DNA from: a virus
DNA length: 35,642 nt
IMG/VR virus record: IMGVR_UViG_3300020437_000025
Coordinates: 1 to 35,642 of that record
Direction: 5' to 3' (one strand)
How positions within the stretch are numbered: position 1 is the first letter of the stretch; each line of letters opens with the position of its first letter. The notes below the pieces were generated by a model. That model did no database searches, was not told the DNA's origin, and saw only the letters and a list, made by a program, of their open reading frames with translations. Below are positions 15,156 to 33,986 of this stretch, in pieces. The position numbers were made by a program, and so were the translations under genes.

Positions 15156-16990
15156 GAATCAACTCTAAATCTAAACTTTTCCTGTTGCTCTATGTAATTA
15201 GATCCATCTTTAAAAACAAATGAAATTTCATAAGCGTTATTTTTCTCAAGTAAAGACATATCTAAATCAAAGAAGGAGCCACTTACATCATATGACAAAG
15301 ATGAATAACTAGGCGTACTTCCTGTAGAATATGATATTACATCATAATTGTCAGAAACTTTAGTTATTTTATAATATAAGTCTCTTATTGTGTTAACCGG
15401 AGCTGTATTCTTAGCAACAGTGTAGATATTAGGTTGCCAATTTTTATTTCTTGTGTACACTCTCAATGTTGTTTTTTCAGTTTGTAGATAAGAGTCCTTT
15501 AGATTTGTTATAGAAACTTTATAATTTGGCACTACATATGAATTGTCTGATGTCTGTGTCTTTACACTAAAAGACCCTGTTACTCCAAGTGGGGTCAGAG
15601 ATGCGCCTGTTCCATCTGATTTGTACCACATGTCGTATAATTCTGTCTGGGCGCCGGCGTACTCGAATTGTGCTTTATAAACCCCTGTACTAACTTTGCT
15701 AGCAGTTATAAAAGTTAGTGCTCCTGCAGATACACCTCCAGCTTGAACAAGTGTTTGAGCTGTACCACCAGTAGAAGAAGTCATCAATTGTGCCAAGACA
15801 TAGTTTGAAGGTGCTGGAATGTCTATAAAGCTCCCGTTTTGGCGATTGTACAAGTAGATGCTATTAAGGTTATTGGCTGCTGGAACAAGAGGGCTGGATT
15901 TTACTATGCTGTTGCGGTCATCCCTTATCGAATCATTCCATTGTGCTTCTATTTGAGGCTTTAAGAAAAACTCATGAGAACTTCTAGAATAAAACTTTTT
16001 AGTGTAATAAGATCTATCTTTAGAGCCATTCTCAAAATCATCCCGTAATTTTAATACAATCCCATAGTTTGGAAGACCATGGCCGCCTGCAAACTGAGCT
16101 ATGGTTGCTTCAGAATTCTCCATTGTAGTACTGATAATCGTGTTTCCATGAAACCCTGGAACAGATTGAGTAAGTGTCAGAATAGCTCCGCCGCGGTTTG
16201 TTGTTATTTTGCTATCAAAATCTGAACTAAGTCTACGGTGAATATCCTTTGTAATGTCTGCTGCGGAAGCACTCATCTTTAGAAAAACATTGTTGCCAAC
16301 CGTATACGTTGATTCATTGATAAAAGTGTATACAACTTTTTTACCTTCATGAGAAAATATAGTAAGAGAATCGTTGACAGTTGGCACCCCCAGAAGCTCC
16401 ACTGATGCGGAGGCTGCTTGGCCAGTGTTGTTTTGGTTCTTTAGCCACTCTTCTGTCCAAGGTGTTATATCTATCTCTATGTTTTCTGTACCAGATTCTA
16501 GTGACTGAGTATATTCTAAAGGTATATTTACTTTTGAAGCATAACTGGAACTTAAGTAATCTGAACCAGTAGTGTGCCAGGGTACTCCGGAACTAGCTGA
16601 AGCCCAATTGCTCGCGCCCAAGTTTAAGTAACTTTCCATGTCTAAGCCATCACCCTCTGTCCAGTCTCTAACAATTGGATGCACTATGACAGTATAATTT
16701 TCAGGAGTTGTTTGCCCATGAGGCGTGTTCGAAAGCTTTAATTTAAACTTTGCTGAACCGGAAGCTGGTATTTTTCCAGAAGTCCTATCTGATGCAATTG
16801 TATTCACTGGGAACTCTAGAAGTATTCTAGTTTGCTCGACAGAACTTGAACTGGCCTGGCCATATATAGAAAACAACTCTAATATATCTGATGCGCCCAT
16901 ATTGGCCTTCGTAGACCTAGCAGTCAAATTTTCTCTTAAAGCATTAGCAATTGTATTGTCTTTAGTTGAATTATATCTTTTAATACTCAT
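15152..16990 (-). CDS. Baseplate/tail appendage protein (612 aa), DNRLRE-like N-terminal region
   Basis: ATG at 16990 overlaps the stop of the gp6-like gene by one base (TAATG), and its own TGA overlaps the next start as ATGA. Both arrangements point to tight translational coupling. Residues about 20-190 resemble a DNRLRE-type beta-sandwich: a Ser-rich start, RILLEFPV, AKFKLKLSN, VHPIVRDWTEGDG and a later WTEEWLKN. In that family the hydrophobic strands and the WTE segment are characteristic; the match is by eye and tentative. The C-terminal half is Ser/Thr/Tyr-rich and beta-predicted, ending in SFVFKDGSNYIEQQEKFRF. It has no transmembrane segment. Position directly between the wedge protein and the giant LamG protein suggests it links the wedge to the fibre. 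Other possibilities include a separate fibre subunit. Confidence 0.83.
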   Translation of the reverse strand: MSIKRYNSTKDNTIANALRENLTARSTKANMGASDILELFSIYGQASSSSVEQTRILLEFPVNTIASDRTSGKIPASGSAKFKLKLSNTPHGQTTPENYTVIVHPIVRDWTEGDGLDMESYLNLGASNWASASSGVPWHTTGSDYLSSSYASKVNIPLEYTQSLESGTENIEIDITPWTEEWLKNQNNTGQAASASVELLGVPTVNDSLTIFSHEGKKVVYTFINESTYTVGNNVFLKMSASAADITKDIHRRLSSDFDSKITTNRGGAILTLTQSVPGFHGNTIISTTMENSEATIAQFAGGHGLPNYGIVLKLRDDFENGSKDRSYYTKKFYSRSSHEFFLKPQIEAQWNDSIRDDRNSIVKSSPLVPAANNLNSIYLYNRQNGSFIDIPAPSNYVLAQLMTSSTGGTAQTLVQAGGVSAGALTFITASKVSTGVYKAQFEYAGAQTELYDMWYKSDGTGASLTPLGVTGSFSVKTQTSDNSYVVPNYKVSITNLKDSYLQTEKTTLRVYTRNKNWQPNIYTVAKNTAPVNTIRDLYYKITKVSDNYDVISYSTGSTPSYSSLSYDVSGSFFDLDMSLLEKNNAYEISFVFKDGSNYIEQQEKFRFRVDS

Positions 16991-18810
16991 TATCCTACTA
17001 TGGTCCCCTTAATATCGTCGATAAATTTAATTTCCCAAATACTATTCTCTGGGATGAAAATATAACTGTCATCTGGTGATGTGTTGGTTTCAACATCGTA
17101 ATAGTAATCTGTATAGCTTGACCCAACAATTGAACTGACCTTTACGCCGTCCAAGATAGGAACGCTTGCGACCTCTGGTATGGATTGTATAATTCTCATA
17201 ATCTCTGTTTTGTACAGAGGTTCACCAATTTCTGGTGGTATTGACGACAATTCCTCAAACAGCCTTAATTTAATTGCAGATATTGCTGTCTGTTGATTTA
17301 CATTTCTCTTTAAAACTACTTTGAAATCAATTCCAAAATTTATGATATTTGCGTCATAAATGTCAACGCTGTCAGAGATCATTCTGACTGAATCTATCCA
17401 AGTTTTTACATTCTGTTTTAATAGATTAGTGGGCGCCTGAAGTTTTCCATTCGCACCTTCTGCCACCAGGAACATGTTCAAGTTTCTTCTCAGGTCGTTT
17501 GTGTCTCTAATAATTGATGCTCTTTTAATCGCGCCATAGATTTCGGGCATTGAGTAAACCATCGAAACATAGTCTTGTTTTGTTACCGCCCTTCCTTGAG
17601 CCCCATAGGTTCCTAGATATCTTCTTTTTAATTCTTCCGTATTTGGGATTGAGATGTTCCCGTTTATTGGCTCCTCATTATATATTTCTATGTTGTTTTT
17701 TATAAAAGAAACTTTTGATGGATCTAATAACTGCTCGTTTTCAAAAAACAATATCGGCTCTACAACTTGAGTCACTGTACCGACTGCTGCATTTGTATTT
17801 TCTACCGTATTGCTGCGATATGTTACGGTGATCGTAGTGTTTTGAGGCGCAACACCCAAGGTATCTGAAGAGGCCAGGTTTGTTGGGTCTGATTTTGGAG
17901 ATGCCACATATTCTTTACCTGAAAGCTTGAGAGTCACTTTCGAAGGTTCTGCGATTGCATTAGTTTTTAAGTCTTGACTTGAACCGTGACCAAAGACTAA
18001 GAATGTGCGGTCTATTGATTTTTCGACTATGTGACGACGAGGAACAGGAACCGGCTTTAATATTGCCTTAACTAAAGAGTCTTGGTTCGCCGGATCTACT
18101 ATAGGCTTATAGATCGTGTTTTGACTTAAATGGTCAACTTGAAAAAAGTCGTTTTTGTTGGAGTCTTGAACTTTTAATATTTCCGTAATCGATGGATCTG
18201 GTATTTCCACCTTTAAAAATCTTTGATAGTTACCTACATCAACCGTGTATGTTTTTTCTTCTCCTGATACAACTGGAACTGTTGACTTTAATACATAGTA
18301 ATTTATCCTAGAGCCGTCAGCCACTGTGTTGTATCCAACAATTTGAGAATTATCAGCCGTTAATCTTTTGTCTGCCATTTGAGTAAAAATCGAGCCGGCA
18401 GCTGATCTATATTTTGAGCCGGCTCGAACTGTAACAATATAATTAGTATCGATACCTGTCCCAGTTGAGTTGGCTGGACACAGGACGTGAACAGCTAATT
18501 CACCTACTCCTACTGGATTCAGTGCCGGGCTCACACCATAAGATTGTATTATTCTTACTGCTACCTCTGGATCTCTTGTGTATGATAAGATTGACTCATT
18601 TGCGTTATGATCCAAATAATAATGCAACTGGTCTCCAACATATGAAACCAAATCAAACATCATTGAGCCAAAAGACGATTTTTTGAAATCTTTATATGTA
18701 TCCGGGTAGTTTCTTTTAATATACTGAACCAAGTCTTCTTTTATTTCAGAAAAACTTGTTCTGGTGTAATCAACTTCTTGTACTTCTCTGGTTCTATTTG
18801 TAGTCATCAT
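16990..18810 (-). CDS. Baseplate wedge protein, T4 gp6-like / Baseplate_J family
   Basis: About 606 aa, close to T4 gp6 length. The frame also has a TTG at 18813; ATGs at 18810 and 18807 follow an AAGAGAG ribosome site (18815-18821), and 18807 has the more usual spacing. Family hallmarks are an N-terminal helical block SSFGSMMFDLVSYVGDQL (about 45-65), then NESILSYTRDPEVA and IIQSYGVSP. In the second half is a Baseplate_J-like core: GAQGRAVTKQDYVSMVYSMP followed by IYGAIKRASIIRD, then INFGIDFKVVLKRNV and AIKLRLFEEL. In T4, gp6 dimers form the inner wedge ring that encloses the hub and triggers sheath contraction. The gp25-like gene directly upstream in the transcript reproduces the usual gp25-gp6 pairing of contractile tails. 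Confidence in the family is high; identity as gp6 itself is by analogy. Confidence 0.93.
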   Translation of the reverse strand: MMTTNRTREVQEVDYTRTSFSEIKEDLVQYIKRNYPDTYKDFKKSSFGSMMFDLVSYVGDQLHYYLDHNANESILSYTRDPEVAVRIIQSYGVSPALNPVGVGELAVHVLCPANSTGTGIDTNYIVTVRAGSKYRSAAGSIFTQMADKRLTADNSQIVGYNTVADGSRINYYVLKSTVPVVSGEEKTYTVDVGNYQRFLKVEIPDPSITEILKVQDSNKNDFFQVDHLSQNTIYKPIVDPANQDSLVKAILKPVPVPRRHIVEKSIDRTFLVFGHGSSQDLKTNAIAEPSKVTLKLSGKEYVASPKSDPTNLASSDTLGVAPQNTTITVTYRSNTVENTNAAVGTVTQVVEPILFFENEQLLDPSKVSFIKNNIEIYNEEPINGNISIPNTEELKRRYLGTYGAQGRAVTKQDYVSMVYSMPEIYGAIKRASIIRDTNDLRRNLNMFLVAEGANGKLQAPTNLLKQNVKTWIDSVRMISDSVDIYDANIINFGIDFKVVLKRNVNQQTAISAIKLRLFEELSSIPPEIGEPLYKTEIMRIIQSIPEVASVPILDGVKVSSIVGSSYTDYYYDVETNTSPDDSYIFIPENSIWEIKFIDDIKGTIVG

Positions 18811-18814
18811 CAAT

Positions 18815-18839: not shown

Positions 18840-19337
18840 TCAAACAAACTGCCCTAAATTTAAACCTCTTGCTACCATTGGGCGGTTAACCGCGTCGATG
18901 GCACCCATGACATCCTGAAGAAAAACTTCTTTAGTTATAAAATCTAAACCAAATACTATTTCATCTGATAATCCTAGGTCAGTTATTGCATATGTTATTG
19001 TCAATGTTGAAACACCCTCATCTAGTTGGTCACTTGTTGAATTGAAACCTGCGTTTATCAGTGTTATATTTGGGAGATATTTTGCTAATTGTTTTTGTAT
19101 CTTTGTTTTAATATCTAGAAACTCTAGTGATTCTGGACTTTCAAATAAATAATTTGCTAGACCAATACCAAGATCAGGATTCATTGGCCATTCGCCTGGT
19201 ATTGTTTGCAACAAAAACAAAAAATCTTGCTTCAACGAAGCCGCGGCATTATTGACAGAAGCATAAGGACCAACCGTCTCGTCGATGCGCAGCGGCCATT
19301 TTGGTTGAATTTGGTTTTTTGTTTGTAAAATAGCCAT
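18840..19337 (-). CDS. Baseplate wedge protein, T4 gp25-like (GPW_gp25 family)
   Basis: 165 aa, ATG at 19337 with GAGGT (19344-19348) 6 nt upstream. Residues 26-70 carry the family signature: repeated Ala/Ser helix, then FLLQTIPGEW, PMNPDLGIGL and ANYLFE (residues 41-66). This matches the conserved gp25 pattern of a Trp/Pro-Glu-Phe-Gly-like turn and helix. Residues 78-99 (IQKQLAKYLPNITLINAGF) and 111-122 (TLTITYAITDLG) fit the conserved C-terminal beta strand and helix. In contractile tails gp25 sits at the inner baseplate, where it nucleates sheath polymerisation and contacts gp6. The C-terminal extension after residue 125 is longer than T4 gp25 (132 aa). It lies immediately upstream of the gp6-like gene in the same transcript. 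Confidence 0.93.
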   Translation of the reverse strand: MAILQTKNQIQPKWPLRIDETVGPYASVNNAAASLKQDFLFLLQTIPGEWPMNPDLGIGLANYLFESPESLEFLDIKTKIQKQLAKYLPNITLINAGFNSTSDQLDEGVSTLTITYAITDLGLSDEIVFGLDFITKEVFLQDVMGAIDAVNRPMVARGLNLGQFV

Positions 19338-19355: not shown

Positions 19356-19388
19356 AATAGTAGTGTTAACAATAAATGTTTTACTATT
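19356..19388. other. Weak inverted repeat in the 50-nt gap between the giant gene and gp25
   Basis: Arms AATAGTA (19356-19362) and TACTATT (19382-19388) are perfect reverse complements flanking about 19 nt. This is the longest non-coding gap in the window. In the minus-strand transcript the hairpin would start at the stop codon of the 3844-aa gene and precede the gp25 ribosome site. Arms are all but two bases A/T and there is no following T-run, so a terminator is unlikely; an mRNA-processing or attenuation element is possible. Confidence 0.3.
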
Positions 19389-22300
19389 CACTCTTCGTCT
19401 ATTTCAGTGGTATTGCCGAATGGTGGTAGCTCAATATCACTATTTGGACATAACTTCTCTTCCATCCTCTCTGGATCATAAGGATCGTCTCTGCAAGTTC
19501 TAAGCCTCTTATCACCCGGAAGTTCAGGAAGAGACAAAGCAATTGCAGTTATTGGGCTTATTGGGTGACCATACCTATCTCTGTTCCAGGATGGCAATGG
19601 TTCTCCTGGCCATTGACCTGCCTCGTCTAAACAAGGAATGGAAAAAGAAAAAGCTTGGTCTATAATTGCAGTTGGGCCTTTTATAATATAACCAGAAAGC
19701 CTAGTAACCGCTCTTCGTAATGGAGTCCAGTTTCCATAGATAGCCTTGCTGAAACCAACTGGTAAGTCGACAAGCGGAGAAGTTAGTACTGATGCATATT
19801 TTTTATCTCTATTACCTCCACCGGATTCACCGACCAGACCAGCATGCATTGTTCTAGTTCCAACAGTTGATTTCCACTGATATCCACTCCAGGTTAATTT
19901 ATCAATATCACAATTATCCCAATGGTTTTTCATTTCTTGATATGCTGGGTCTATTGCATTGGCAATTCCTCTAAAAAATATCGAGGGAAATGTTTTAAAT
20001 AGCTGCTCTAATAGCTCTAAAAATTGATCTAAAAAGTCTTCTGGGAATGGAAAGCCAAAGCAACTTAGTTCTTTTGGATCTGAAACAGCACTGTCGGTCA
20101 TTTGTTTGTAAAATTCTGCTTGTGATATTGATTGTATCACGTTACTCTCTTCAGTTCTCTTTATTCCTGCAAGGCCTAATAAAGCGGCTAAACTAGCTTT
20201 GGGCGTTTGCATAATACTAGGCATTGTGCTATAGCCAGCCAATACAGAGGTAGAAAAAGCTGTTGCGATCGATTGAAACCTTTTGACTGGGTAGATATAT
20301 TCAAAAATTTGCTTTGCTTCTTGCGTCTCGATTAATTGTTCTGTCATCCAAGGTTGTAATAAAATATAACCTTCTCTGAATCTAGACAAATCATAGCAGT
20401 CATCTAGTGCCTCACCAAATGGACTAATTGGCTTCTTGTATTCAGCCATTGGTACAGAAAATATTTTTTGATTTCTATTTCCAAACATATAAAAGCTTCT
20501 AAATTCTTCTGATATTTCTTGTATTGGGCCGTTTGGATTTTGTACAAATTCGTTAAATGCCAACTGGTCTCCACGAACAAAGTCCCTTTCTTTGATAAAA
20601 GTGTTTGCAACTAGTCTTGATACTTGGTTTATCTCTGATGACTGCAGTAACCCTTCAAACACTTGACCATTTATAAGTGCCCTATTTAAGACTGCTTCTC
20701 CAAGCACTCTAGGAGTTATGCCTGTATTTAATTGATAAGCGTAGTTCCATCTACTCGCTATAGTCTCAACATTGCTAAAGTGACTTTCTATTGTAAAATT
20801 TTGTATTTTATTTCTTGCAGACCTATAGTAGTCACTATTATAAACTAAAAGTGGCGCAACTTGTTGGTAGAAATCTCCAAACAAGGTGCGGTCGGTGTTG
20901 TTTTGCGGTTGGGCAAGAGATATGCCAGTTTGTTCACGTATGTAATTTTCAATATACTGAACATTCTGATTAAGAACGAAAGGACCAGAGTCTTTTCCCA
21001 AAATCTGCTGAAAAGTTCTGTAATCTAATTTACATAAAAAGTTCTCTATTTTGTTTTTACTTTGAAGTGCCCGGGCGAGACTTTCATTAAACCCAATCGT
21101 TTGCAATAACCTTGGTGCTGAAACATTTAGTTGCGCGTTAGAACCAAAAGCCGCTATGTTTGCTAGAGATATCGCAGTTGAATAAAAGGTACCAAATTCT
21201 TCTACTGTTGATGAGTACATCCAATCTGGATCTAAAATTTTATTTAAAATGCGCGTGTTGTGCACATATTCATTACCAGTGGCATTATCTTGTAGTATAT
21301 CAATACGAATGGGCCATTCTTCTCGTTGCACTAAATCATAATACAAAGCATTAGTTCTTTTTATTATCTGCTTTACTGTTATTTCAGCATTCCTTACGAG
21401 GTTTTTGGTTCTTTCCCATTTTACACTAGCAGGATCATTGCGATTGCCGCCAATATCTGCACCGGGGGGACCTAGGTCCCTAACCCAACTTCTGTTCGCG
21501 TTTATAAAATACCTGCGGCCGCGACGGCTTTCTGAATATGTGTCAACTAAGTCTGTATAATTGTCTACAATGTAGTCATCACCCTCGTCAGAGCGCTGAT
21601 GAGCTTTAGCTACATAGTGTATGCATGCCGCGGCCCAGGGAATTAGTGCTTCGTCGTCTTGTACATCATCAAAATTCTGAGCTTGTTGTGCTTCTCCGTT
21701 TAATGTTCTCCCGGCTGCTTCTTCTTTGATTCTAACAATAGTTGCTGGTAGATCATATATACTTGCAACTGCAACTAAAAATATCTTTTCAAGCGAAGTG
21801 TAGTTTCCGTCTTTTGCTTTTCTTAAAATTCTTTCTAGTATAGCTAGCCTATATGGCGCCTCTAGTATATCTGAATTATATTTTGTAACTTCTGATTTTA
21901 CAGAAAACGCTGCCTGGCTGGATGTTAAGTCAAATAACCTAGTGATTATGTGACTTGCCGCTATAATCATCGAGTTAACTAGCTCATCATCTAAATTTAT
22001 AGCAGATGGTGAGAAATCAGGAGATAGATTAAACAATTGTCCGGGAAACTGAAATGGTGCTCGCTCTTGTACTTCTCCGTCTTCTACAACAAAAGTACTT
22101 GATTCAACTAGCAAAGACATAACTTGAACATTTGCACTATCGTTGATAGAGAAAAAAGAATCTATATCAAATAAAGACGTAACGTCGTCTCGTGCGGGCG
22201 GCGTAAGATTAGAGCGATATGATCTGAAAACGACATCGTATACTAAACTTTTAAGAAAATCGCTAATATCCATTTGACTAATAATGCCCTCTGAATAAAA

Positions 22301-25300
22301 AAGAGAAGTTCCAGTATTCTTAACTGGGCAGTGTTCTATGCTATTATAGTTGATTAGATTGCGCCCCTCGCCATCAGAAACCAAGCCGGCTATCGAAGCA
22401 CGGTCGCCGCGGTCAAGATGAGCAAGAAGTTCACCCTCTCCATAAAAGTTCCAGCTTGTGTAATCTTGCTTGTTTATTCTTCGAAGCCCATCTGAATCTC
22501 CGGACAGACCTTCTTCTAATATTGAGTCAACATCATCGTCACCTGGGTACAAAGTAACAAGACCTGGCTGGTCTTCTAGATCCAAGTAACCGCGGTCGGC
22601 GCGTGCACCGTCTAACTCTTCATCAAAATCTCCGACGTAATTATCCCATCTTTTCCTTGGTAGTACAGTCGAGGCCCAACTAATCCGGTCGGTATTGCGC
22701 GCGCCGAACTGGGCATCACGGCGGGCGCGGGCGCCTCGTTGGGCTAGACCAAAACTATGTGCCAATGGGATTAACTGTTGTCTTCCTGTTTCTTTGTTGT
22801 TGCCCTTATTCGTTAAGAGCCCCCATAAGGTGTTTGTTCTTCTAGTTCTTAAGTACCACTGAAAAATGTTCCTTAAAGAAAAAACAGTCCTATGAAAGGC
22901 ATTTTTGTTCGATAATAGATTTTCATCTTTAGAAATAAAATACATATAATTACAAGATTCTTGGCGGTGATGCCAATCTCTAATAAGATTTTGTTTGAAT
23001 TGTTCTTGATCAAGATCTACAGTATTTAGAGGAATCGTTGCAGCGCGATTAATCATTAAACTACCGCGGTCCTGGAATAGCAAATCTAAATCATCTGATG
23101 TATTAAATTCCGGAGCGGTGACTTCGTCTTGAAACACCCTTGAATATATTCTCTCTATAGAGCAATATTGTGGTAATGATTGCCTATCTATATTTGATTC
23201 ATTTCTAGCCCTAGTGTGTCTTCTGCTAAAATCTGTAGTAAATTCAGGAACTTCTTCCTGTACCTCGAATCTATCGTGGTTATTAACATACTGAACATAT
23301 TCATCTACAATGTTCTGTAAAGCTACGTTTAACTTATCTATATTTTCCTGAAGAAGAGAATCATCATGTATACTTCTAATGTACTTGGGAGGAACAACTT
23401 TGCAAAATACTTCTCTAGCAAAATCACTATTTGAATCATAGACTTGTGTTATTAGAACTCTTATAGGTATTTTATAAAAATTAGGAGGTAACAAATTCTC
23501 TGCGCGCGGTGACAAACCCTGCCTGATTCGCTCTGGGTCATGATCGATGACTAGCTTCAACGAGTCGCGACGATCGCGCTGTTCTCTATTAGCGAGAAAA
23601 CTGAAATCTAATAATTCAGCCGGCTGAACTCGCCGGATCTCTTCAATTGAAGGAATTAACCAATCAGTAGTCATCTCTACATTTGTAAACCTGTCAATAC
23701 CCATAGGTCTCGCGAGATATACATCACTACTTGCAAGTCCCTCTGCCTCTCTTAAAAATATCGTTCTTCCATATTGAGTTAATTTTTTATCTCTTGTATC
23801 TCTGACGAATGCGTTGTCATAACCCCTTTCTGGTCGACCAGCAATAGTCGAAAGTCGATCTATTACTGGTCTTAAACGATCTTCAAAGGCGCGTTTTGTA
23901 TTTCTTGTAGGCTCGAATTTACTAACAGCATTATCAAATGTTTCCCCTATTGTAAAAGAGCCATGTAAACCAGCTATCACAGATGCAGTATCAGTAAAAT
24001 TAAACACTGTCTCTACCCAAGTTTCTTCATGGGGGTTTTCATATCCAGATTTTATACTGTTAAAAGACTCCAATTCTGATTGATTCTGGTTAGGCAACAC
24101 TGTGCCTAGAGGATTATCAAATATCTTTTCGCTTACTAAAGGGTTGAAGCTTCTGTCAACTGATAATATATTATATGGCGACTGGTCTCCTTCGATGTTT
24201 TCTATCTCCAAATCTTTTTTAAGGCCGCGGCCGAAGTTGGGAAATAAACCGCGGCCGGTGTCATACCTAATTGCTCCAATTGTGGTATACGGCAGGTCAT
24301 CAGCGTCGCGGCCTGCGTCTCGAAAAACGTGATCTACATAGTCGCCATGGCTGTTATCGACAGCCATCCCATTACTAGAAGCATTATACAGCCTAAACCT
24401 GTTATCCTCAGTTATATCTATACTTTCGCCAGAAGCCTGAAGTGCTAAGAGCTCTTCTCCGTTTGATGGAACTATGTGATATTTGACAATTTCATCTGAA
24501 ATACTAACTAAGTCACCAAACTGATCAAACTTCTGTGTTGAATATTCATCTTCCCCCAAGAAAGTTGGGTTATTAAACAGCCTGGTTATATAAGCTGCAG
24601 CCTCACCGGAAGAAATTGCGGGATTGCGACTTGTCAAAAAGTCTTGACTAAAGTGCACTATTCTTCGTTTTCTAGTTATAAATCTTGTTGGTGTACGCCT
24701 TATTACTTCAGGTCTTGCATTTGCAGCTGGTACTGTAGTGTTTCTGTCGCGGCCACCAGGAGGGTCCGGGCTTTCATCATAATGCATTAAGCCCCTATAG
24801 TGCAAAAATATCTTTTCTACATTGTCAGAATTCATAACACTGTTAAGGCCGTCAATAAAATCATCTATATGATATATCTCATGCTCTTCGTTTAGATCAC
24901 CTTGACCTTCAGCCGATGAGCCCCTGGCGCCTTCGGGCAACTCCGGGGTGTTTCTAAAGTCATAGTTATCAATATTTATTGCGGGTAAATTAGTTCTAAG
25001 ATAAGCATCCGCAATATTTAATCTTTCTGGGCTTCTTCGGGAAAGGTTGAGAATTGGCATAACTATCGTTGTCAAATCATTATCTTCAGGGTCTGATGCG
25101 TCAGCATTTATTATTGAATTAATTACTTGCCGCCCGGGCAATATTAAAGATTCAAGTCTCGCCAAAGGACCAGTAACCTCTAGGAGGTGTTCTATATGAA
25201 AGAAAGGATTATTTCCAGATAGTAAATCAGATGCTCTTTTTATAACATCTATTGTTCCAGATGATTCATCTTGTATAAGATTTCTTTCATTTAGCAAAGG

Positions 25301-28300
25301 ATGTTGCCAGTAAAATTTATCTGGTATCTCTGCATCTATCCTTACTTGCCCCTCTATTTGACCTTCGTCTCCCAAAGAAAGTGCATCGACTCCGCGTATT
25401 AAAGCTACATCGTCCCTATTAGCTATGTCTCTAGAGACCTCTACTTGTGGTACAAAATAACGTATAAACCAGTTAAAGTAATCTATATTATCACCATTTT
25501 GAAATACTTTTTTAGATGCCCCTTGGACTCGAATCATTTGCTTTTGGACTAAGTCCTTAAGTGCAAAAGTCGATTGATCAATACCTGTCATTCGAGTGAT
25601 AACCTTTTCCCACTTTCCCTGAAGAGATGGGTGCCTATCTATTTCCTCTCGTACAAAACGGTACACGAAATCTTTCATAAAAGGCTCGTCAGCAACACCC
25701 TCAACATCCCAAACAGAGTAAGCTAAAGAACCTTTTAGCATCAATTCTACAATACACACCCTAACAAACCCCAGCAAGCAAACATTTTGTATTGCTTTTT
25801 GTACAGGCCCCAAATCATCAAAATCCAGAACATAAGGGTCGTTTTCTGGTTTATTTATCTCTTTTGCTATTTCGTTTGCTAACTCATCTGTTACCATCTT
25901 TTCAAATGATAATATACCAAATTGAGAGACATTGTATCGATTTTTATAACAATCATCGTTTTCTGAAAAATATGCTTCCCCTGATACTCTCCTTTTTAGT
26001 TCTTCATAATAATTTTGCTCATCATAAATTCTTGAGTCTCTCAACGAAAAAAAGATTTGTTCAAATACACCTTCTGTAAAGTTTGGCGCCTCTCTATCAT
26101 AAACATGTTGCCTCAAAAAGTTATTTAAGTAATTTTGAAGAGTTGCAACTTGTCTATCAGCATTTTCATCCGGGCGTTCACGTCGATAAATAAAATTTAC
26201 TTTTCGCTTTACATTTTCCCAAAAGCTTCTTGCAAAAAGCTCTTTTCTCGTATACAGACCAGGTGGTATATCCGCAATCGCTTGCTCAAACATATCTCTG
26301 TTTTCTGCTTGTTCTTGCGTTAGTGTTTCCTCATTTAGTCCTGGTCCTGGTATTTTGTCACAGTACTCAAATGTTTGTGGACCGGAGAACAATGGACTAT
26401 TATTAATAATAATCGTATAAGGATCAAATCGATTTGTGTTTTCGGTACTAGCAAATTCATTTAATTCAATATTTGAAACTATTGGCCCAAGATTTAAATT
26501 TAAAGAAAGCCTTTGTCTTGCTGTTCCTCGATCGTTGCCGTCTTGGCGTCCAGGCTCTACATTAATAAGCTCAGGATTGTTTGTGGAACGTAATCTTTCT
26601 CTGGAATTTTCATAAGAAAAGTCAAGAGCTGTTTTAATTATTTTAAGATAATCTTCTTCATTTATGGGATTAGATATATTTTGCAGATGTACTTGTAAAG
26701 TGTTTTGCAAAAAAGTTAATCTATTTTGAATTCTTTCTAGCAAAAATTGAAGCCTGCCTTCCTCTGGTGTGACTGTTTCATCGTCTTCTGCTTTCTCTAC
26801 TATTTTATAAGAACCTATAAAGCTAAAATCTATAAGTAACGAATCTTCACCTACTGGGAGCCCAAACATACCGAACGACTCCTTCGAGGAGAGAGGTAGT
26901 CTCATTTGCCTACGCGTTGCATTAATGACACGTACAGATCGATTGTTGATCTTTAGGCTGTTGTCCATACTGACTATGTTTTCATTTTCATCTACGTCAT
27001 AAAAAGAATTTTGTCTAAAACCAACAGGATTCAAAAACAGTTTTTCAAAATCCACTTCACTTTGCAATTCTATATCAGTTAGCCTAGGGTAACTTCTTAC
27101 TGCATCTTGTGGTACCTGTATAGTTTGCCCATCTGGTTGCATATAGTATGCTGGTACCATAACTCCTGAAACAGGATCTCTTGATAATTCATAAATTTGA
27201 TAAAGAACATGAAGCTGCTCAGTTGCCGATTCAATGTTTGGAGAATTTCTTTCATTTCCAATTGCACCATACAACTTTAAATTTTCCAATATTGTCTGAA
27301 CAATTATTGTAGATTCTTCGTTATATTCCGGGTCAGATGGTTTTGGAAGTCGGCTAGACTGCAAAAAGAGCGAAGGACCAAAGTTTGACAAAGATCCTAC
27401 ATAACCTATATGTGCCGAATTAAATAAACTTTTTGCTGTATTGTTTATTTGCTGTGAAAGTGCATCTGGTAACTTATTAATCAGTGCATCAGGATTACCA
27501 AATTCAAGTATTTTTGGAACTATCGCGTTCAATCCTTTTTCACCTAGCGCTTCTATGGCTTTCGCTTGATCTAAAAGGTTTTTATTTGCTAGATCAACTG
27601 CGTTTTTTATATCCTCATCGCTTGCGCCACTGGTTAACATTTGTCTTCTTATTTGATCTAGCAATGAAGAAGTTTCAGCACAAGTAGCAGAACCTATAAC
27701 GGTTGAAGATTCTCTTAAGTTATCGCAAAAGTTTGGCGGAAGAAAGACCGCTATTGTTTCAAATAACTCTCTTAAGTTTTGCTCAAGTCCAACTTCATCG
27801 ATTCCTAGGTTCTCAGCAAGAGTTAAGATCATGTGCATTGTTGCTGCATCCACTTCACCTCCCTCTAAGACCCTACATAATTCTTCTCCAGTTAGAAATA
27901 AAGCCATCTCATCTATTAGTTGTTTTGTTTTTTCTATATTTTCAGGACTGATTGAAAGATCAGTTAATCCATCTATCAACGCTCTTTTGATGTCTCCTGT
28001 CGACCCGGCTCCGGAGCCATAAAGTTGGTCTCTTAATTGCTCTTGGCAGAGCGGAGCATTAAGAATATCTAATAGGGCCTTAACAAAAACACACAAAAAT
28101 TGAGTAAGTATCTCTTCCCATTGTTTTAAAAGGTTCTTTATAAGATCCCGATACCATCCCCATATAGCCAAATCTATATTAAAATTTAAATTAAAATCAG
28201 GAATTTTTACATCAAAAGCTGGTAACTTTAAGCATTGTATCAGTTTACATAGAATTGCACCCGGGGATATAATATTAGCTACGCCTTGCAATAACTCCTT

Positions 28301-30922
28301 TAGGGAGCTGCACTGATCGGCAAAAACTGACAATATGTCGTCTTCACCAAACTTAATCTTTAACTTTGCCGATAAGTCATTCTTCTTTTTAAACTGTTCC
28401 CAACGTTTTCTAGGGTCTTCTATATTGTTTTTTGCCCATTGATTTATAGGGTTAAATTCGTTGTCACTTTCACCTGATATTCCAACTGTGTGCTTTATTA
28501 TAAACGAAAGGCCAAGTTTTCCTATTCCTATTTTTTCACACTCTAGAGACCTAAATCCCAAGAACCCAATAGTATCACCCATAACTCTTGACTGGGCAAG
28601 ATAAGAAACAGTTCTTGGGCTCCTTAGAGCAGGAACACTTGTGGTAAGCTCATCAACGCTTAATGATTTGCCTCCTGCGCTTAAACTACTAACCACTAGG
28701 CCAGTGCCCGCGGGAGATGGTGCAAATTGAAAATCTAATGTTGATTCTGTTCCTGCGAAACCGCTAAGTTTCATATTGCCTTTTGAATTTGCACCAAAAT
28801 CAAATTTTTTATTTTTCTTCTTAACAAAATTCTTTAATTGTGCAGGGATTGTTTTTAACTTAGACGATTCTGTATTAGCGTTAAATGTTAGTGGCTGAAT
28901 GGATACACCCTCTGTTTCGCAATTTTCTTGTGCTTTTTTTAAATTGTCCGCGGAGTTTGTAATTAATTCTTCTAAATCTGCAAAAGTTACCTGCAGTTTT
29001 TTAAAGTCGGATAACTTTGGGCTCGTTACGCCAGCTGTTGTACCAGCTGAGGTCACTAGTCCAGAGGCTGCGTTTAAAACAGTGTTTGTATATTCATAAC
29101 TGTTCTGTCCTAAGTCGATGTTAGTGTTACCAAAGACCCCTAGATTTATACTGGCTCTGTCTAATGATTGATTATTATTATAATTTTCTAGTGTCTTTTC
29201 TCGAATTGTGCGAGCTATTTCCTGTTTTCTTTTTTTGGCTAAAGCTTTGTATTCCTGATATCTTCTTTCCTGTTCTCCTTTGCTGACTGGCTGCTGCTCG
29301 CAAGATTCAGCTATTTCAATTTCTTCACTAGCCCAGGCTTCAGGAAGTGGTGCTATCTCTTGATCTGCTTCGTCTTCAAATTCAACACCGTCTGTTATAT
29401 ATTCTAGTTTTTTTCTATTTATTTCGAACTTTGCTCGGTATTTGTCTCCAGGTCTCAGCGAGGGAGTTCTGAATTCTATAAATTTTATCAAGGGTGATTC
29501 AATATCATCCCCTTCAATTGTTGACCAATTTTCAGCTCTTGCTATTAAGTCATACTCTTCTATACTTACATTAGTGGACAATACAAAATCGCTTTGTGAG
29601 CGATATGTTCCATCATGATTTGGTGTTATCTCCATATCATACCCATAGAGAGCTTGGAACCGACCGTCTAATGGGTTGTGAAACCAAGCTTGTGGCTTGT
29701 TGTAAAACTCTAACACTTTTGTTAAAGCCTGATCTTCAAGAAGCAATATTGCTTCTTGATAGCTCTGTAGGTCTTGTGGGGATGGATTTTCCCTTAAAAA
29801 CGGCGGTAGATTAGAGAGAGTGTATTCGGTTTTATCAAAAAAGCCTATTCTGCTAGAGTCTATTATAAAAGGATCTGGATCGATTAATGGATCTGGCTCA
29901 AATGCTCGAAACAAAGTTTCTGAAAAATCACTGTCCGACATCAAAGAAACTTCTCTTGGTCTTGGATACTCATTTGAAATTTCAATAAAAGCATCGTAAA
30001 GAGGGCTATTATTATCAGGTGACACTATTCTGTATCTAAGCCCACCAAAGTAAGAAGATTTAATGACATACTCTGAAGAGTCTGTATTAAAATTTAACCT
30101 TTCGCTTTCAGCTACTTGTGATTTATAGTTTTCCAAAAACACCAAACCTTGCGGCTTATTACCCAAATAAGATTGAAAGTTTTGTCTAGGCTCTAATAAA
30201 TCTGGTGTATTCTCAACTTTCTGTGTTAGAAATCCTTGAGTAAAAGAATCATAAAGACCCAAAAGAGCCAAGTCGTAAGCGCCTGATTCATCTGCAAAAA
30301 CCACAGGATCATGATGATATGTGTTATTTCCAACTCTTGTTCTTGGGCGCCACCCGTGTAAAACAGCCAATGTAGCTTCACCTAGTTTGCCAAATTCATC
30401 TTGAAACATTCTGTTTATTAATTCTATTTGAGTAGCAGCATAATTACTTTGCATATATTCGCTAATTTCTGTTGTGTTAAAGCCAGATGGTCTTCTATGA
30501 AGTGGACTTCTATTTAGTCTTGTCTCAAGATCTGGGCTCCCTGCAAACGGCCGTTGATCTACGCTATTTAGGTCTTCGAAACTTTGATTTATGCCAAACT
30601 TTGTAAACAAATAGCAGAGAATATAAAATTGATTATCTAACTGAAATTTTGTTAGATATGTTTGCATGTTGCTGTCAAAGGTCGCAGCCTCTATATTAGA
30701 CACCTTCATACCTGATGAGCAATCAAACCAACCTTGTGGATCTTCTAATGATGGGTTATCATCATCGGCCTCTAGAAGCGAGGCATACGTAACAATTGTA
30801 CCTAAAGCACGTTTAACGATAAGTATGTCCCTGCCAACATCTCCAAGTCGACGCTGACCGAAATCAACTTTCTCATCTGTCTCTGGGTTTCTAAGTTCTA
30901 ATTTATATATTCTTGAAGCCAT
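19388..30922 (-). CDS. Giant virion/baseplate protein (3844 aa) of unknown family
   Basis: Single uninterrupted frame, ATG at 30922, TGA at 19388. Residues about 30-190 have a pattern like a split peptidoglycan-binding (PG_binding_1-type) fold: DILIVKRAL at 32-40, TFDSNMQTYLTKFQLDNQ at 81-98 and EFGKLGEATLAVL at 176-188 (tentative). Residues about 540-610 are Glu/Lys-rich and probably coiled-coil. Around 870-960 there is a hydrophobic, Trp/Leu/Ile-rich helical block (AIWGWYRDLI) without a clean membrane helix, with scattered Cys. Most of the rest is acidic, Asn/Asp/Arg-rich, with R/G-rich loops (residues about 2200-3150). The last about 200 residues have HWDNCDIDKLTWSGYQW and LSGYIIKGPTAIIDQAF. 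It sits between gp25 and a spike-like gene, where T4 has hub genes, so a hub, tape-measure-like or injected role is conceivable. I do not assign a function. Confidence 0.85.
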   Translation of the reverse strand: MASRIYKLELRNPETDEKVDFGQRRLGDVGRDILIVKRALGTIVTYASLLEADDDNPSLEDPQGWFDCSSGMKVSNIEAATFDSNMQTYLTKFQLDNQFYILCYLFTKFGINQSFEDLNSVDQRPFAGSPDLETRLNRSPLHRRPSGFNTTEISEYMQSNYAATQIELINRMFQDEFGKLGEATLAVLHGWRPRTRVGNNTYHHDPVVFADESGAYDLALLGLYDSFTQGFLTQKVENTPDLLEPRQNFQSYLGNKPQGLVFLENYKSQVAESERLNFNTDSSEYVIKSSYFGGLRYRIVSPDNNSPLYDAFIEISNEYPRPREVSLMSDSDFSETLFRAFEPDPLIDPDPFIIDSSRIGFFDKTEYTLSNLPPFLRENPSPQDLQSYQEAILLLEDQALTKVLEFYNKPQAWFHNPLDGRFQALYGYDMEITPNHDGTYRSQSDFVLSTNVSIEEYDLIARAENWSTIEGDDIESPLIKFIEFRTPSLRPGDKYRAKFEINRKKLEYITDGVEFEDEADQEIAPLPEAWASEEIEIAESCEQQPVSKGEQERRYQEYKALAKKRKQEIARTIREKTLENYNNNQSLDRASINLGVFGNTNIDLGQNSYEYTNTVLNAASGLVTSAGTTAGVTSPKLSDFKKLQVTFADLEELITNSADNLKKAQENCETEGVSIQPLTFNANTESSKLKTIPAQLKNFVKKKNKKFDFGANSKGNMKLSGFAGTESTLDFQFAPSPAGTGLVVSSLSAGGKSLSVDELTTSVPALRSPRTVSYLAQSRVMGDTIGFLGFRSLECEKIGIGKLGLSFIIKHTVGISGESDNEFNPINQWAKNNIEDPRKRWEQFKKKNDLSAKLKIKFGEDDILSVFADQCSSLKELLQGVANIISPGAILCKLIQCLKLPAFDVKIPDFNLNFNIDLAIWGWYRDLIKNLLKQWEEILTQFLCVFVKALLDILNAPLCQEQLRDQLYGSGAGSTGDIKRALIDGLTDLSISPENIEKTKQLIDEMALFLTGEELCRVLEGGEVDAATMHMILTLAENLGIDEVGLEQNLRELFETIAVFLPPNFCDNLRESSTVIGSATCAETSSLLDQIRRQMLTSGASDEDIKNAVDLANKNLLDQAKAIEALGEKGLNAIVPKILEFGNPDALINKLPDALSQQINNTAKSLFNSAHIGYVGSLSNFGPSLFLQSSRLPKPSDPEYNEESTIIVQTILENLKLYGAIGNERNSPNIESATEQLHVLYQIYELSRDPVSGVMVPAYYMQPDGQTIQVPQDAVRSYPRLTDIELQSEVDFEKLFLNPVGFRQNSFYDVDENENIVSMDNSLKINNRSVRVINATRRQMRLPLSSKESFGMFGLPVGEDSLLIDFSFIGSYKIVEKAEDDETVTPEEGRLQFLLERIQNRLTFLQNTLQVHLQNISNPINEEDYLKIIKTALDFSYENSRERLRSTNNPELINVEPGRQDGNDRGTARQRLSLNLNLGPIVSNIELNEFASTENTNRFDPYTIIINNSPLFSGPQTFEYCDKIPGPGLNEETLTQEQAENRDMFEQAIADIPPGLYTRKELFARSFWENVKRKVNFIYRRERPDENADRQVATLQNYLNNFLRQHVYDREAPNFTEGVFEQIFFSLRDSRIYDEQNYYEELKRRVSGEAYFSENDDCYKNRYNVSQFGILSFEKMVTDELANEIAKEINKPENDPYVLDFDDLGPVQKAIQNVCLLGFVRVCIVELMLKGSLAYSVWDVEGVADEPFMKDFVYRFVREEIDRHPSLQGKWEKVITRMTGIDQSTFALKDLVQKQMIRVQGASKKVFQNGDNIDYFNWFIRYFVPQVEVSRDIANRDDVALIRGVDALSLGDEGQIEGQVRIDAEIPDKFYWQHPLLNERNLIQDESSGTIDVIKRASDLLSGNNPFFHIEHLLEVTGPLARLESLILPGRQVINSIINADASDPEDNDLTTIVMPILNLSRRSPERLNIADAYLRTNLPAINIDNYDFRNTPELPEGARGSSAEGQGDLNEEHEIYHIDDFIDGLNSVMNSDNVEKIFLHYRGLMHYDESPDPPGGRDRNTTVPAANARPEVIRRTPTRFITRKRRIVHFSQDFLTSRNPAISSGEAAAYITRLFNNPTFLGEDEYSTQKFDQFGDLVSISDEIVKYHIVPSNGEELLALQASGESIDITEDNRFRLYNASSNGMAVDNSHGDYVDHVFRDAGRDADDLPYTTIGAIRYDTGRGLFPNFGRGLKKDLEIENIEGDQSPYNILSVDRSFNPLVSEKIFDNPLGTVLPNQNQSELESFNSIKSGYENPHEETWVETVFNFTDTASVIAGLHGSFTIGETFDNAVSKFEPTRNTKRAFEDRLRPVIDRLSTIAGRPERGYDNAFVRDTRDKKLTQYGRTIFLREAEGLASSDVYLARPMGIDRFTNVEMTTDWLIPSIEEIRRVQPAELLDFSFLANREQRDRRDSLKLVIDHDPERIRQGLSPRAENLLPPNFYKIPIRVLITQVYDSNSDFAREVFCKVVPPKYIRSIHDDSLLQENIDKLNVALQNIVDEYVQYVNNHDRFEVQEEVPEFTTDFSRRHTRARNESNIDRQSLPQYCSIERIYSRVFQDEVTAPEFNTSDDLDLLFQDRGSLMINRAATIPLNTVDLDQEQFKQNLIRDWHHRQESCNYMYFISKDENLLSNKNAFHRTVFSLRNIFQWYLRTRRTNTLWGLLTNKGNNKETGRQQLIPLAHSFGLAQRGARARRDAQFGARNTDRISWASTVLPRKRWDNYVGDFDEELDGARADRGYLDLEDQPGLVTLYPGDDDVDSILEEGLSGDSDGLRRINKQDYTSWNFYGEGELLAHLDRGDRASIAGLVSDGEGRNLINYNSIEHCPVKNTGTSLFYSEGIISQMDISDFLKSLVYDVVFRSYRSNLTPPARDDVTSLFDIDSFFSINDSANVQVMSLLVESSTFVVEDGEVQERAPFQFPGQLFNLSPDFSPSAINLDDELVNSMIIAASHIITRLFDLTSSQAAFSVKSEVTKYNSDILEAPYRLAILERILRKAKDGNYTSLEKIFLVAVASIYDLPATIVRIKEEAAGRTLNGEAQQAQNFDDVQDDEALIPWAAACIHYVAKAHQRSDEGDDYIVDNYTDLVDTYSESRRGRRYFINANRSWVRDLGPPGADIGGNRNDPASVKWERTKNLVRNAEITVKQIIKRTNALYYDLVQREEWPIRIDILQDNATGNEYVHNTRILNKILDPDWMYSSTVEEFGTFYSTAISLANIAAFGSNAQLNVSAPRLLQTIGFNESLARALQSKNKIENFLCKLDYRTFQQILGKDSGPFVLNQNVQYIENYIREQTGISLAQPQNNTDRTLFGDFYQQVAPLLVYNSDYYRSARNKIQNFTIESHFSNVETIASRWNYAYQLNTGITPRVLGEAVLNRALINGQVFEGLLQSSEINQVSRLVANTFIKERDFVRGDQLAFNEFVQNPNGPIQEISEEFRSFYMFGNRNQKIFSVPMAEYKKPISPFGEALDDCYDLSRFREGYILLQPWMTEQLIETQEAKQIFEYIYPVKRFQSIATAFSTSVLAGYSTMPSIMQTPKASLAALLGLAGIKRTEESNVIQSISQAEFYKQMTDSAVSDPKELSCFGFPFPEDFLDQFLELLEQLFKTFPSIFFRGIANAIDPAYQEMKNHWDNCDIDKLTWSGYQWKSTVGTRTMHAGLVGESGGGNRDKKYASVLTSPLVDLPVGFSKAIYGNWTPLRRAVTRLSGYIIKGPTAIIDQAFSFSIPCLDEAGQWPGEPLPSWNRDRYGHPISPITAIALSLPELPGDKRLRTCRDDPYDPERMEEKLCPNSDIELPPFGNTTEIDEE

Positions 30923-30927
30923 TTCAC

Positions 30928-32328
30928 TTAATTCACAGTATTGAATCTGCTCAGTATTGATGTTTCTTTGTTTGTATCTGTTAGATAATTAGTAATTCTG
31001 TTAAAATTGTTTACATCTATCTTAAACCCATCAATACGATTTTCAATGCCTTTTATGGTTGTAACTAAAGTCTCCCACTGTGTTTTGGGATCTCTTACGG
31101 ATAAGCCCGAAGGAACCGGCAACATATCGAACCCTGTACCAATTTGTATGTTAAACTTATTTTGCTGTGCAACAAAAGTGTCAACCCGATCATTTAATTG
31201 CTTAATAAGCTGCAAAATAGAATTTATACAGTCTACTAGATTATTCCCTAGAACCATTGGTTGTTGTGGCACTACAGTACCATCCCTATCCTCTCCGTTT
31301 TCAGCGATTAAGTGTATTCCGTTGTTTCTAGTGATTGTATTACCTTGAGAATTTACATACTCATAGGGTCCGCCGGTAACAATCTTAATATCTTGCCTTG
31401 AATGTAATCGAACTTTATCTGCCTTAAGCATAATTCCACTAGTTGGTGCTGCAGTATCTGCAACGCCGCCGGCGTTTCGTATGTCTTCTTTTATGTTAAA
31501 GTTCTTATCTATTATTGTCATCTGACTGATATAAATACGAGCAGCGTCCATCACCATACCTGGGTGCTTACCATACTCTAAATCGTAATCTTGAAGCTCT
31601 GGGGGGCGGAACGTGTTGAAAGACGGAGCAAAAACAAGAGACTGCCCCGCAATAGATTCTAAAGCGAATGGAGCCATACGCCCAGCGACGATATCTATAG
31701 CACCTGCCCCCATGTGGTCTGAGAACCCTGAGTTGTACTCCCTATCAAACAAGCTTCTAGAATATTTCATTTTAGAGTTTCTAGGTGAATGGTCTCTACC
31801 TAATATTATAGCTGAGTTGTTTTTACTTTGTATTTTTTCATCACCAGGGCGTAAAAACAATTCTGGTACAGGCTCCTTGAGTTCTATATCCCCAACGCCA
31901 TCTAAATCAATTCTGTCTTTGTATCTTTGCCACTTTACATGGTTTTTCTTCCTGCCTTTTACAAATATATTTTTAGGCTTATCCTTTTGCGGATTAGTAG
32001 AATTTTGAGATTGAGAAATAGTTTTTTCTTCTTGTTGTTCTGGTCGCTTACTTTGTTTTCTTTGTAAGACTTCATCTGGTCGAGACTTTGTTGGGGTACC
32101 CAACACAGCATCAACATCGCGATTATTTCGTCTAAAAACCTCTCCATGTTTTGAATTTAAAAGAGATTTACTAACCCTTTGCTTTAGAGTGTTAAAAGCA
32201 TCAGATTCTGAACTGCCAATAACAAAAGTTCTATATTCTTCACCGTCTATCTCTACTGTATAGGTCGCGGCCGTATTACCATCTGGTCTTTTTTCAAATG
32301 CATATATTGGTTTTTTTGTAACTTTCAT
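30928..32328 (-). CDS. Spike/hub-associated structural protein (466 aa), probable
   Basis: ATG at 32328 has AAGGT (32336-32340) 7 nt upstream; the 3' end is 5 nt from the giant 3844-aa gene. Residues 1-70 form a small beta/alpha domain. Residues about 70-130 are basic and low-complexity (KQSKRPEQQEEK), probably disordered. The central region carries SGFSDHMGAGAIDIVAGRMA and FAPSFNTFRPPEL, then IMLKADKVRLHSRQDIKIVTG, with short alternating beta strands as in phage spike or hub-associated proteins. The C-terminal about 130 residues are helical, probably coiled-coil. The ADKVRLHSRQDIKIV block resembles beta-prism/needle regions of spike proteins by pattern only. Position next to gp25 and the giant protein supports a hub or tail-tip role, but I see no lysozyme active-site pattern, so calling it gp5 would be unjustified. 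Confidence 0.72.
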   Translation of the reverse strand: MKVTKKPIYAFEKRPDGNTAATYTVEIDGEEYRTFVIGSSESDAFNTLKQRVSKSLLNSKHGEVFRRNNRDVDAVLGTPTKSRPDEVLQRKQSKRPEQQEEKTISQSQNSTNPQKDKPKNIFVKGRKKNHVKWQRYKDRIDLDGVGDIELKEPVPELFLRPGDEKIQSKNNSAIILGRDHSPRNSKMKYSRSLFDREYNSGFSDHMGAGAIDIVAGRMAPFALESIAGQSLVFAPSFNTFRPPELQDYDLEYGKHPGMVMDAARIYISQMTIIDKNFNIKEDIRNAGGVADTAAPTSGIMLKADKVRLHSRQDIKIVTGGPYEYVNSQGNTITRNNGIHLIAENGEDRDGTVVPQQPMVLGNNLVDCINSILQLIKQLNDRVDTFVAQQNKFNIQIGTGFDMLPVPSGLSVRDPKTQWETLVTTIKGIENRIDGFKIDVNNFNRITNYLTDTNKETSILSRFNTVN

Positions 32329-32333
32329 GGTGT

Positions 32334-32936
32334 TTACCTTGGTGAAGTGCCCGTTATAACCCCGTATGAGAAATCAAAATTGTATGGAAACTGCACATCT
32401 ACTATAGTTTGCATCTTAACTTCTTCTGAGTCGTTTTTCAAAACCATGTAAGCTCTAGGGTATCTTTCTATCTGCTTTAGATCCTTTACGCTTAAGCCAG
32501 GCAACCTATCTTCCTCTCTCAACTTTTTTGTTTCTTCCCCTTTTTTCGGTTTCTTATTTTTCTTAATCATGACTTCAAAGTACTTATCTGTGTCACTTGG
32601 CTGCGGTAGACAAGCACAGAGTTCTTGTATATAAACAATACATTCCATTATTCGTAAATCAGATATTTTTCCATCACTCTTAACATTTGGAGAAGCTTTC
32701 GTACAATATTCTACAAACGCACTGTCGTACTTCTTTTTTAGCTCTTCAAGGCTAATGGTCGCAGCGTATATCACAAGGCCTCTAAACTTTACATTTACAT
32801 GAGGTTTGTTACCTTCTCCTTTTATTTGTTCATAAAGAACATAATTTAAAACATCAGCCTTTTTACCAGTCCCTGGGTGGTTTGCTTTCGGCCTATTTTC
32901 TCCTATCTTTGGAGATACTATGCTATCAAAAGACAC
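32334..32936 (-). CDS. Uncharacterised baseplate-region protein (200 aa, GTG start)
   Basis: The start at 32936 is GTG; no in-frame ATG lies nearby, and an AAAGAGG ribosome site (32945-32951) stands 8 nt upstream, at the end of the preceding gene. Stop TAA at 32334, 5 nt from the spike-associated gene. The protein is mixed alpha/beta, with a helix at EELKKKYDSAFVEYC (about 60-75), two Cys near 108-110 (IQELCACLP) and a Lys-rich stretch near 124-140. The C-terminus is beta-rich (VQFPYNFDFSYGVITGTSP). I do not recognise the family. Position between the late-sigma cassette and the spike/hub genes suggests a baseplate assembly or hub factor. No catalytic motif is visible. Confidence 0.75.
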   Translation of the reverse strand: MSFDSIVSPKIGENRPKANHPGTGKKADVLNYVLYEQIKGEGNKPHVNVKFRGLVIYAATISLEELKKKYDSAFVEYCTKASPNVKSDGKISDLRIMECIVYIQELCACLPQPSDTDKYFEVMIKKNKKPKKGEETKKLREEDRLPGLSVKDLKQIERYPRAYMVLKNDSEEVKMQTIVDVQFPYNFDFSYGVITGTSPR

Positions 32937-33266: not shown

Positions 33267-33986
33267 TTACTCTTTATCCCACTTATTCTTAAAGTTTCTA
33301 TATTTTTCTCTTAACTTATTAAGATTGTTGACAACCTGCTTGGTATTAAGACCTGTAAGTTCTCTTAAATATAGATAAATTGCTTTTTTATTAAAAATCT
33401 CAATGTCTTCAATATTGTGAAGTAGAACTTTTACTGCCTCTAAAACTAATTTTTCATTATGCTTTATATTCGCACTATCCCATTTTTCTATCTGCTCTAA
33501 TAAGTTATTCCAATATTCAATTTCAATTCTTTGTTCTAGATAAGACTCTCCTGGGTCTGTTGTACCCAAAACATCAGAACCTCCATTTTCCACTAAATTT
33601 TCAAAAGAAACTTCTTTTTTTATTTTTTTTGAATTTTGCTTTACTTTGTGAATAAACCAATTCTTAGTAACCACGGAAAAGTAAGAGAACGCCTTAGAAC
33701 CTTTATCTGGATCGTATTTGTTTAAAATCGTAGTTAGCCAAACCTTGCAATCATCCCTAAGCTGGTCTATGTTTGGAAGGATATTAAATTTATATGTGAA
33801 TATTATCTTGTTAACCATTTCACTGAATGCAGGCTGAATCAGGTCTTCATACAACTTGGACCTTTCTCTGTAAGAACTTGATCTACAATATTCAATTATT
33901 GCATCTTCATGAACCTTCGTAAAATAAAGGTTTTTTGTTCTTTTGCGGCGGCGGCGCCTAGGTGGGGCTTTAACTTCTTCACTCAT
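33267..33986 (-). CDS. Late-transcription sigma factor, T4 gp55-like (239 aa)
   Basis: ATG at 33986; the frame has a TTG at 33989, but a GAGGAA ribosome site upstream supports the ATG. The start overlaps the end of the one-TM gene by 8 nt. Residues 9-19 are a basic run (PRRRRRKRTK). The sigma region-2-like core is at about 83-117: LTTILNKYDPDKGSKAFSYF followed by SVVTKNWFIHKVKQ, matching the F/YD-x-x-x-G-x-x-x-F-x-YF / FI pattern of gp55 proteins. Residues about 198-235 (YLYLRELTGLNTKQVV, then NNLNKLREKYRNF) look like a C-terminal helix-turn-helix. Length exceeds T4 gp55 (185 aa). gp55 directs host RNA polymerase to late promoters, with gp33 and the gp45 clamp as partners. I see no T4-type TATAAATA site correctly oriented for these genes, so its promoter is outside the window or diverged. 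Confidence 0.88.
   Translation of the reverse strand: MSEEVKAPPRRRRRKRTKNLYFTKVHEDAIIEYCRSSSYRERSKLYEDLIQPAFSEMVNKIIFTYKFNILPNIDQLRDDCKVWLTTILNKYDPDKGSKAFSYFSVVTKNWFIHKVKQNSKKIKKEVSFENLVENGGSDVLGTTDPGESYLEQRIEIEYWNNLLEQIEKWDSANIKHNEKLVLEAVKVLLHNIEDIEIFNKKAIYLYLRELTGLNTKQVVNNLNKLREKYRNFKNKWDKE

Follow-up and report, generated by a model that had tools for sequence, protein, structure and literature searches.

The baseplate of phage T4 serves as the reference for contractile injection machines. Giant genes are found after gp6 in Synechococcus phage Syn19 (Syn19_088, about 6483 aa by coordinates), in Agrobacterium phage Atu_ph07 (gp180, about 4449 aa, a 'virion structural protein') and in Xanthomonas phage XacN1 (ORF325, 3313 aa). 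In cyanophages and pelagimyophages, VrlC is said to substitute for gp7 of T4 (PMC7029224). Here we describe a baseplate locus from an uncultured virus in which a giant gene stands before gp25 and gp6. The nearest isolates by gp6, Microcystis phage Mel-JY01 and Flavobacterium phage immuto, have no such giant; just before gp25 and gp6 they carry genes about ten times smaller, encoding a 343-aa putative chitinase and a 176-aa protein in Mel-JY01 and proteins of 371 and 139 aa in immuto. An uncultured genome (LR756508) with a full-length gp6 relative likewise has small genes and no giant in this place. Because small genes fill this position in the nearest gp6-relative isolates, the general baseplate type works without the giant.

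An intact giant gene between a 466-aa gene and gp25

The analysed stretch (35,642 nucleotides, positions 1 to 35,642 of IMG/VR record IMGVR_UViG_3300020437_000025; hereafter the window) is a virus contig and probably a fragment. Its giant gene (19388..30922, minus strand, as for all window coordinates below) is a single ATG-to-stop frame of 3844 aa, or about 0.42 MDa, and takes up 32% of the record. A sequence-only reading of this DNA had described an intact 11.5-kb frame filling about a third of the window, and both the ORF listing and the uninterrupted frames of relatives confirm this. Full-length relatives measure 3980, 3992, 3903, 4693, 4403 and 2659 aa without interruption, so that the giant is explained neither by chance nor by a fusion through misassembly. 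Its start codon is backed by the proteins of relatives, which begin in register (MAxRxYKLE...).

In order of transcription, the locus starts with a gp55-like late sigma factor (33267..33989, database profile match), a 106-aa gene, a 200-aa gene (32334..32936, profile-conserved across loci) and a 466-aa gene (30928..32328), after which comes the giant. It is followed by the baseplate wedge protein gp25 (18840..19337; PF04965 above cut-off, phrog_261 at 1e-13, phrog_43), a gp6/Baseplate_J-like wedge protein (16990..18813; phrog_10646 at 1e-9, and a full-length tblastn match to Mel-JY01 at 7e-59), and genes of 612 aa, 3393 aa (with a LamG domain), 274 aa and 1093 aa. The earlier placement of the giant in a T4-type baseplate cluster is thereby borne out by PF04965, PHROGs and tblastn. 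The label 'spike-like' given to the 466-aa neighbour stands as far as its motif (RPGDxxIxGxNNxxIxLGRD) and position go; PHROG, Pfam and PDB searches gave it no match, and when its profile was compared with that of the positionally equivalent gene of Mel-JY01 and immuto, the probability was 1%.

Two genes downstream of gp6 deserve mention in their own right. The 612-aa protein (15152-16990, start MSIKRYNSTKDNTIANALREN...) has no PHROG or Pfam match; in the relatives read through, proteins with a similar start (365-887 aa) follow gp6. The 3393-aa protein (4974-15155) is a second giant, in which aa 180-346 match a LamG/ConA-like domain (PF13385, 2.9e-9); a 3430-aa version occurs in contig L031, and it is the positional counterpart of the post-gp6 giants of Syn19, Atu_ph07 and XacN1.

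Relatives of the giant hold the same place in a clade of uncultured T4-type phages

The family was found by using gp25 as bait in IMG/VR, a search by gene order that the sequence-only reading had proposed. It yielded eight contigs, and in every one of them the gene directly before gp25 is a relative of the giant, mostly 32-45% identical (tblastn) and, where complete, 3903-4693 aa long. Alignment scans with the whole protein and with its conserved parts widened the set to about thirty loci on contigs of up to 190.7 kb, with lengths going down to 2614 aa and identities to about 19%. Twenty viral contigs, including the window, carry a family member of 2,614-4,693 aa. With profiles for the 200-aa, 466-aa, gp25 and gp6 genes, the order giant, gp25, gp6 was recovered in all 20 of these loci, and a gene of the 466-aa type directly precedes the giant in 19 of them; the remaining contig (L057) ends at the start of the giant. 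The bait contigs were selected for their gp25 neighbour, but the later contigs, found via the giant itself, also have gp25. A weak match of the C-terminal profile was seen to a 102-aa ORF in L015 that does not adjoin gp25 (E 8e-5 in a small set).

The gp23 capsid gene was present in four of five family contigs searched and the late sigma factor in eight of eight, and family contigs also carry sheath, tube, portal and terminase genes. These contigs thus have the gp23, gp25, sheath/tube and gp55-type sigma genes of a T4-type genome, with capsid, sheath and tube coming from the relatives only, as the window is a fragment. The giants form a previously unlabelled family, which keeps the same baseplate place throughout these uncultured T4-type phages. 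The word 'inserted' in the sequence-only reading is too strong: the cluster of this clade always includes the giant, and in Mel-JY01 and immuto the position is occupied by small genes, which match no frame segment of the giant (hhalign probability 1.2% or less). Among bacterial and archaeal genome contigs a scan found no relatives of the giant, no isolate with the family was found in the phage collection, and the papers searched gave no account of it. Moraphages (PMC12619734), possibly a related lineage, have gp25, gp6 and a sigma factor in common with the family contigs; the excerpted text of that account mentions no such protein.

Other features of these contigs were seen in passing. Upstream of the sigma gene, L020 and L021 have a dense cluster of sugar genes beside the structural cluster, with putative nonulosonic-acid (sialic-acid-type) synthesis and CMP-sugar activation as judged by motifs. 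Small genes near the capsid gene (L029:18489-19283, L034:10736-11155) have an 'SSWGRTRxPKNL'-like motif in common, and L029 has two such genes side by side that are possibly paralogous.

A conserved frame with two alternative insertion sites

Alignment of the 20 family members revealed a conserved frame formed by aa 1-1250, 1380-1860 and 3430-3844, with 148 near-invariant residues in the window giant. The N-terminal part (aa 1-1250, 27173..30922) was delimited from conservation, AlphaFold2 (AF2) modelling and its cysteines; aa 10-520 and 640-780 are predicted to be folded, and aa 860-1250 are helical, cysteine-rich and conserved. Insertion site A (aa 1250-1380, 26783..27175), which is short in the window by length comparison, separates it from a second part (aa 1380-1860, 25343..26785; alignment and AF2 of the L028 member) with a conservation peak at 1620-1800. 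Insert B follows (aa 1861-3430, 20633..25342, ~1,570 residues; alignment and length comparison), and then the C-terminal part (aa 3431-3844, 19391..20632; alignment and AF2 of L028) with the motifs FPSxxFRGxAxxxDPAYKEMxxHxxNC and RYGHPxxPxTxxAL. Profile comparison among the frame segments gave no real match. Conservation drops markedly over the N-terminal ~560 residues of L065, the most divergent member.

Both sites vary strongly in length. At site B, eleven members, among them the window giant, have 1014-2233 aa; L053, L063 and L065 have 378-571 aa, and another six have only 92-173 aa (L028, L050, L054, L059, L060, L062). Five of the latter (L050, L054, L059, L060, L062) have 600-954 aa at site A, and no member of the alignment has both large inserts. 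The first half of insert B can be aligned in the 11 members and is homologous across distant groups (hhalign E 1.5e-37); the second half is fast-evolving, and in close relatives conservation is lowest in the last third of the insert (about 16-24%, against about 60% in some stretches of the frame). Insert A does not resemble insert B (hhalign E 0.7-0.85). On a tree of the frame, B occurs in the clade of the window and in earlier-branching lineages. One clade (support 100/100) lacks it, and most sampled members of that clade carry insert A. The simplest history is that B was lost once, A was gained, and A was reduced again in L053, with the root and the number of events being uncertain.

The frame also stands out for its cysteines. 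Of the 29 cysteines of the window giant, 19 (66%) are unchanged in 18 or more of the 20 members, the next residue being tryptophan at 14%, and 23 of the 29 are located in the frame. Such near-invariance points to disulfides or bound metal, and a conserved cysteine set is not usual in proteins synthesised in the reducing environment of the cytoplasm. The helical segments at aa 880-960 and 3620-3680 are hydrophobic and rich in proline and cysteine. The best 19-residue hydropathy of the window giant is 1.86, and values stay below 2.1 in all members save L065 (L065:3062-10906), which, unlike the other giants, has one strongly hydrophobic segment at residues about 754-775 (hydropathy 2.8).

Database and structure searches

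Searches with the window giant in Pfam, PHROGs and PDB sequences found no match, and neither did tblastn against 50,697 phage records. An alignment of five giants brought no convincing hit in the same three databases, and tblastn with two further divergent members against the phage records was without meaningful match. The earlier statement that the giant has no recognised full-length family thus holds for all of these collections. Pfam scans recognised no domain in the window giant, its relatives or the inserts, and no hydrolase in the giant. A polyvalent phage protein, the class described in PMC5512222 in which several recognisable domains are joined in one giant, was set aside as none was recognised. 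A peptidoglycan-binding-like pattern spotted by eye at aa 20-190 was dropped as well: PF01471 (PG_binding_1) is found in no giant at E<=10, although it is present elsewhere in four contigs; a very divergent version would escape such a scan.

Structures were predicted for two regions. The AF2 model of window aa 1-1195, made from a 20-row alignment, had a pLDDT of 63, with good regions at about aa 10-110, 150-280, 290-520 and 640-780. That of L028 aa 1400-2560, a region in which the frame parts come near each other, reached a pLDDT of 68 and a pTM of 0.60, and its helical core exceeds 90. These multi-domain, middling-confidence models had no PDB match below E 0.001 (VIA-align Z <=4.4); a known fold, including that of gp27 or gp5, may nevertheless be present. 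The L028 model did match two unnamed viral proteins, present as fragments in BFVD and only about 12% identical to L028, namely A0A516MAR9 (766 columns, Foldseek probability 1.00, E 8e-9) and A0A1B1IUR6 (724 columns, probability 1.00, E 3e-4). As judged from these modelled structures, the giant family may reach further than its sequence reveals.

The two large relatives G009 and G011 allowed the other tail genes to be surveyed. In both, a tail tube gene is followed, one gene further on, by a protein of tape-measure size (537/590 aa), and next come proteins of 218/212 aa, a 117-aa gp53-like protein (phrog_7145, phrog_232) and a protein of 923/749 aa. The tape-measure and hub labels are putative here, given by position and sequence character and not by family matches: the hub candidate of G011 has a C-terminus (LGFGGYYTVESVSTSFAGG...) that looks hub-like by eye, and a PDB search gave the hub candidate no confirmation. 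The giant itself lies far from the tube and sheath genes. Since tube, sheath, gp53-like, tape-measure and hub candidates are all separate in these relatives, the giant is probably an additional component, and not a fusion of such proteins.

Proposed role of the giant

We lean, with moderate confidence, towards the giant being a structural protein of the contractile-tail baseplate, with its frame at the junction of hub and wedge and its insert facing the host. The invariable place between the spike-like gene and gp25-gp6 is what suggests a baseplate protein of the virion, and the conservation of the frame beside a central region that is indel-rich or missing was also counted in favour. The frame (N-terminal ~1860 and C-terminal ~415 residues) would sit where the central spike or hub meets the gp25-gp6 wedge, its 19 near-invariant cysteines forming disulfides or binding metal. 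The central module (insert B, or the unrelated insert A in the sister group) would loop out from this frame and point most likely to the host surface, or carry fibres. Host-facing parts are often poorly conserved, and the low conservation of the last third of B together with the exchange of modules suggests such an orientation. It is a more doubtful proposition that a cysteine-linked frame of 0.3-0.5 MDa docks modules that can be exchanged and reach two thousand residues, at two alternative sites, which would be a baseplate architecture not described before.

Other readings account for part of these observations. If the giant travelled in the virion and were released into the cell envelope during infection, the hydrophobic helical segments at aa 880-960 and 3620-3680 might touch the membrane; the conserved, cysteine-rich character of these segments, their amphipathic/proline pattern and the adjoining spike-like gene would all suit such a fate. 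We nevertheless regard it as unlikely, given that no strong transmembrane segment is present in the window giant and that the gene is placed among those of the baseplate wedge. Large injected phage proteins are usually head-borne or tape measures. The fast-evolving, exchangeable inserts could instead mean that the giant primarily binds receptors or carries fibres, with the frame as a mere anchor, but Pfam scans found no carbohydrate-binding or fibre domain in giants or inserts, and the LamG-containing 3393-aa neighbour is the likelier adhesin, which makes this quite improbable.

A fused or replaced tape measure or hub (gp29, gp27, gp5), as the sequence-only reading had considered, would fit the size of the giant and its nearness to the spike-like gene. 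It is, however, very improbable in view of the separate 537/590-aa, 749/923-aa and gp53-like candidates elsewhere in G009 and G011, the lack of similarity to the gp27, gp5 and gp29 hub and tape-measure families in PHROGs, Pfam and PDB, and a span of 2614-4693 aa that consists mostly of insert swaps, unlike a length ruler. The lysozyme function proposed alongside it is likewise unsupported, as the giant matched neither a hydrolase nor a peptidoglycan-binding family. We give least credence to an assembly factor that is produced late in infection and stays out of the virion: the giant is known here from genes alone, but its gene is located among those of the wedge, and a catalytic or chaperone protein of 0.42 MDa that every member retains and that has variable modules would be unusual. 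Of the earlier interpretation, the intact, familyless giant in a baseplate cluster has stood and the replacement of tape measure, hub or lysozyme has not; a baseplate-scaffolding giant, in strict synteny with gp25-gp6, stays the best reading.

A baseplate protein of this kind would imply a differently built baseplate core, in phages found here only in metagenomes, from that of the nearest isolates, which build theirs without a giant. If the frame does dock modules, one baseplate type would be able to exchange entire units that face the host or penetrate the envelope. For structural biologists, the family with its boundaries and two insertion sites offers definite constructs and a phage clade to work on.

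Comparison with known systems

Like the giants of Syn19, Atu_ph07 and XacN1, the window giant is encoded by a single gene beside gp25 and gp6 in a baseplate cluster. Those giants, however, lie downstream of gp6, where the counterpart in the window is the 3393-aa LamG protein. The family profile showed no similarity to the three (best other E 0.04), while the same profile recovers the divergent L065 at 1.6e-73. VrlC and, if its predicted role is right, the giant are alike as extra baseplate proteins of marine T4-type phages, but are set apart by position: in all 20 loci the giant comes before gp25, whereas VrlC is said to stand in for gp7, the gene for which follows gp6 in the T4-type phage S13. 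Giant virion proteins of T4-type phages are already known in kind, and what is new is the giant family that precedes gp25.
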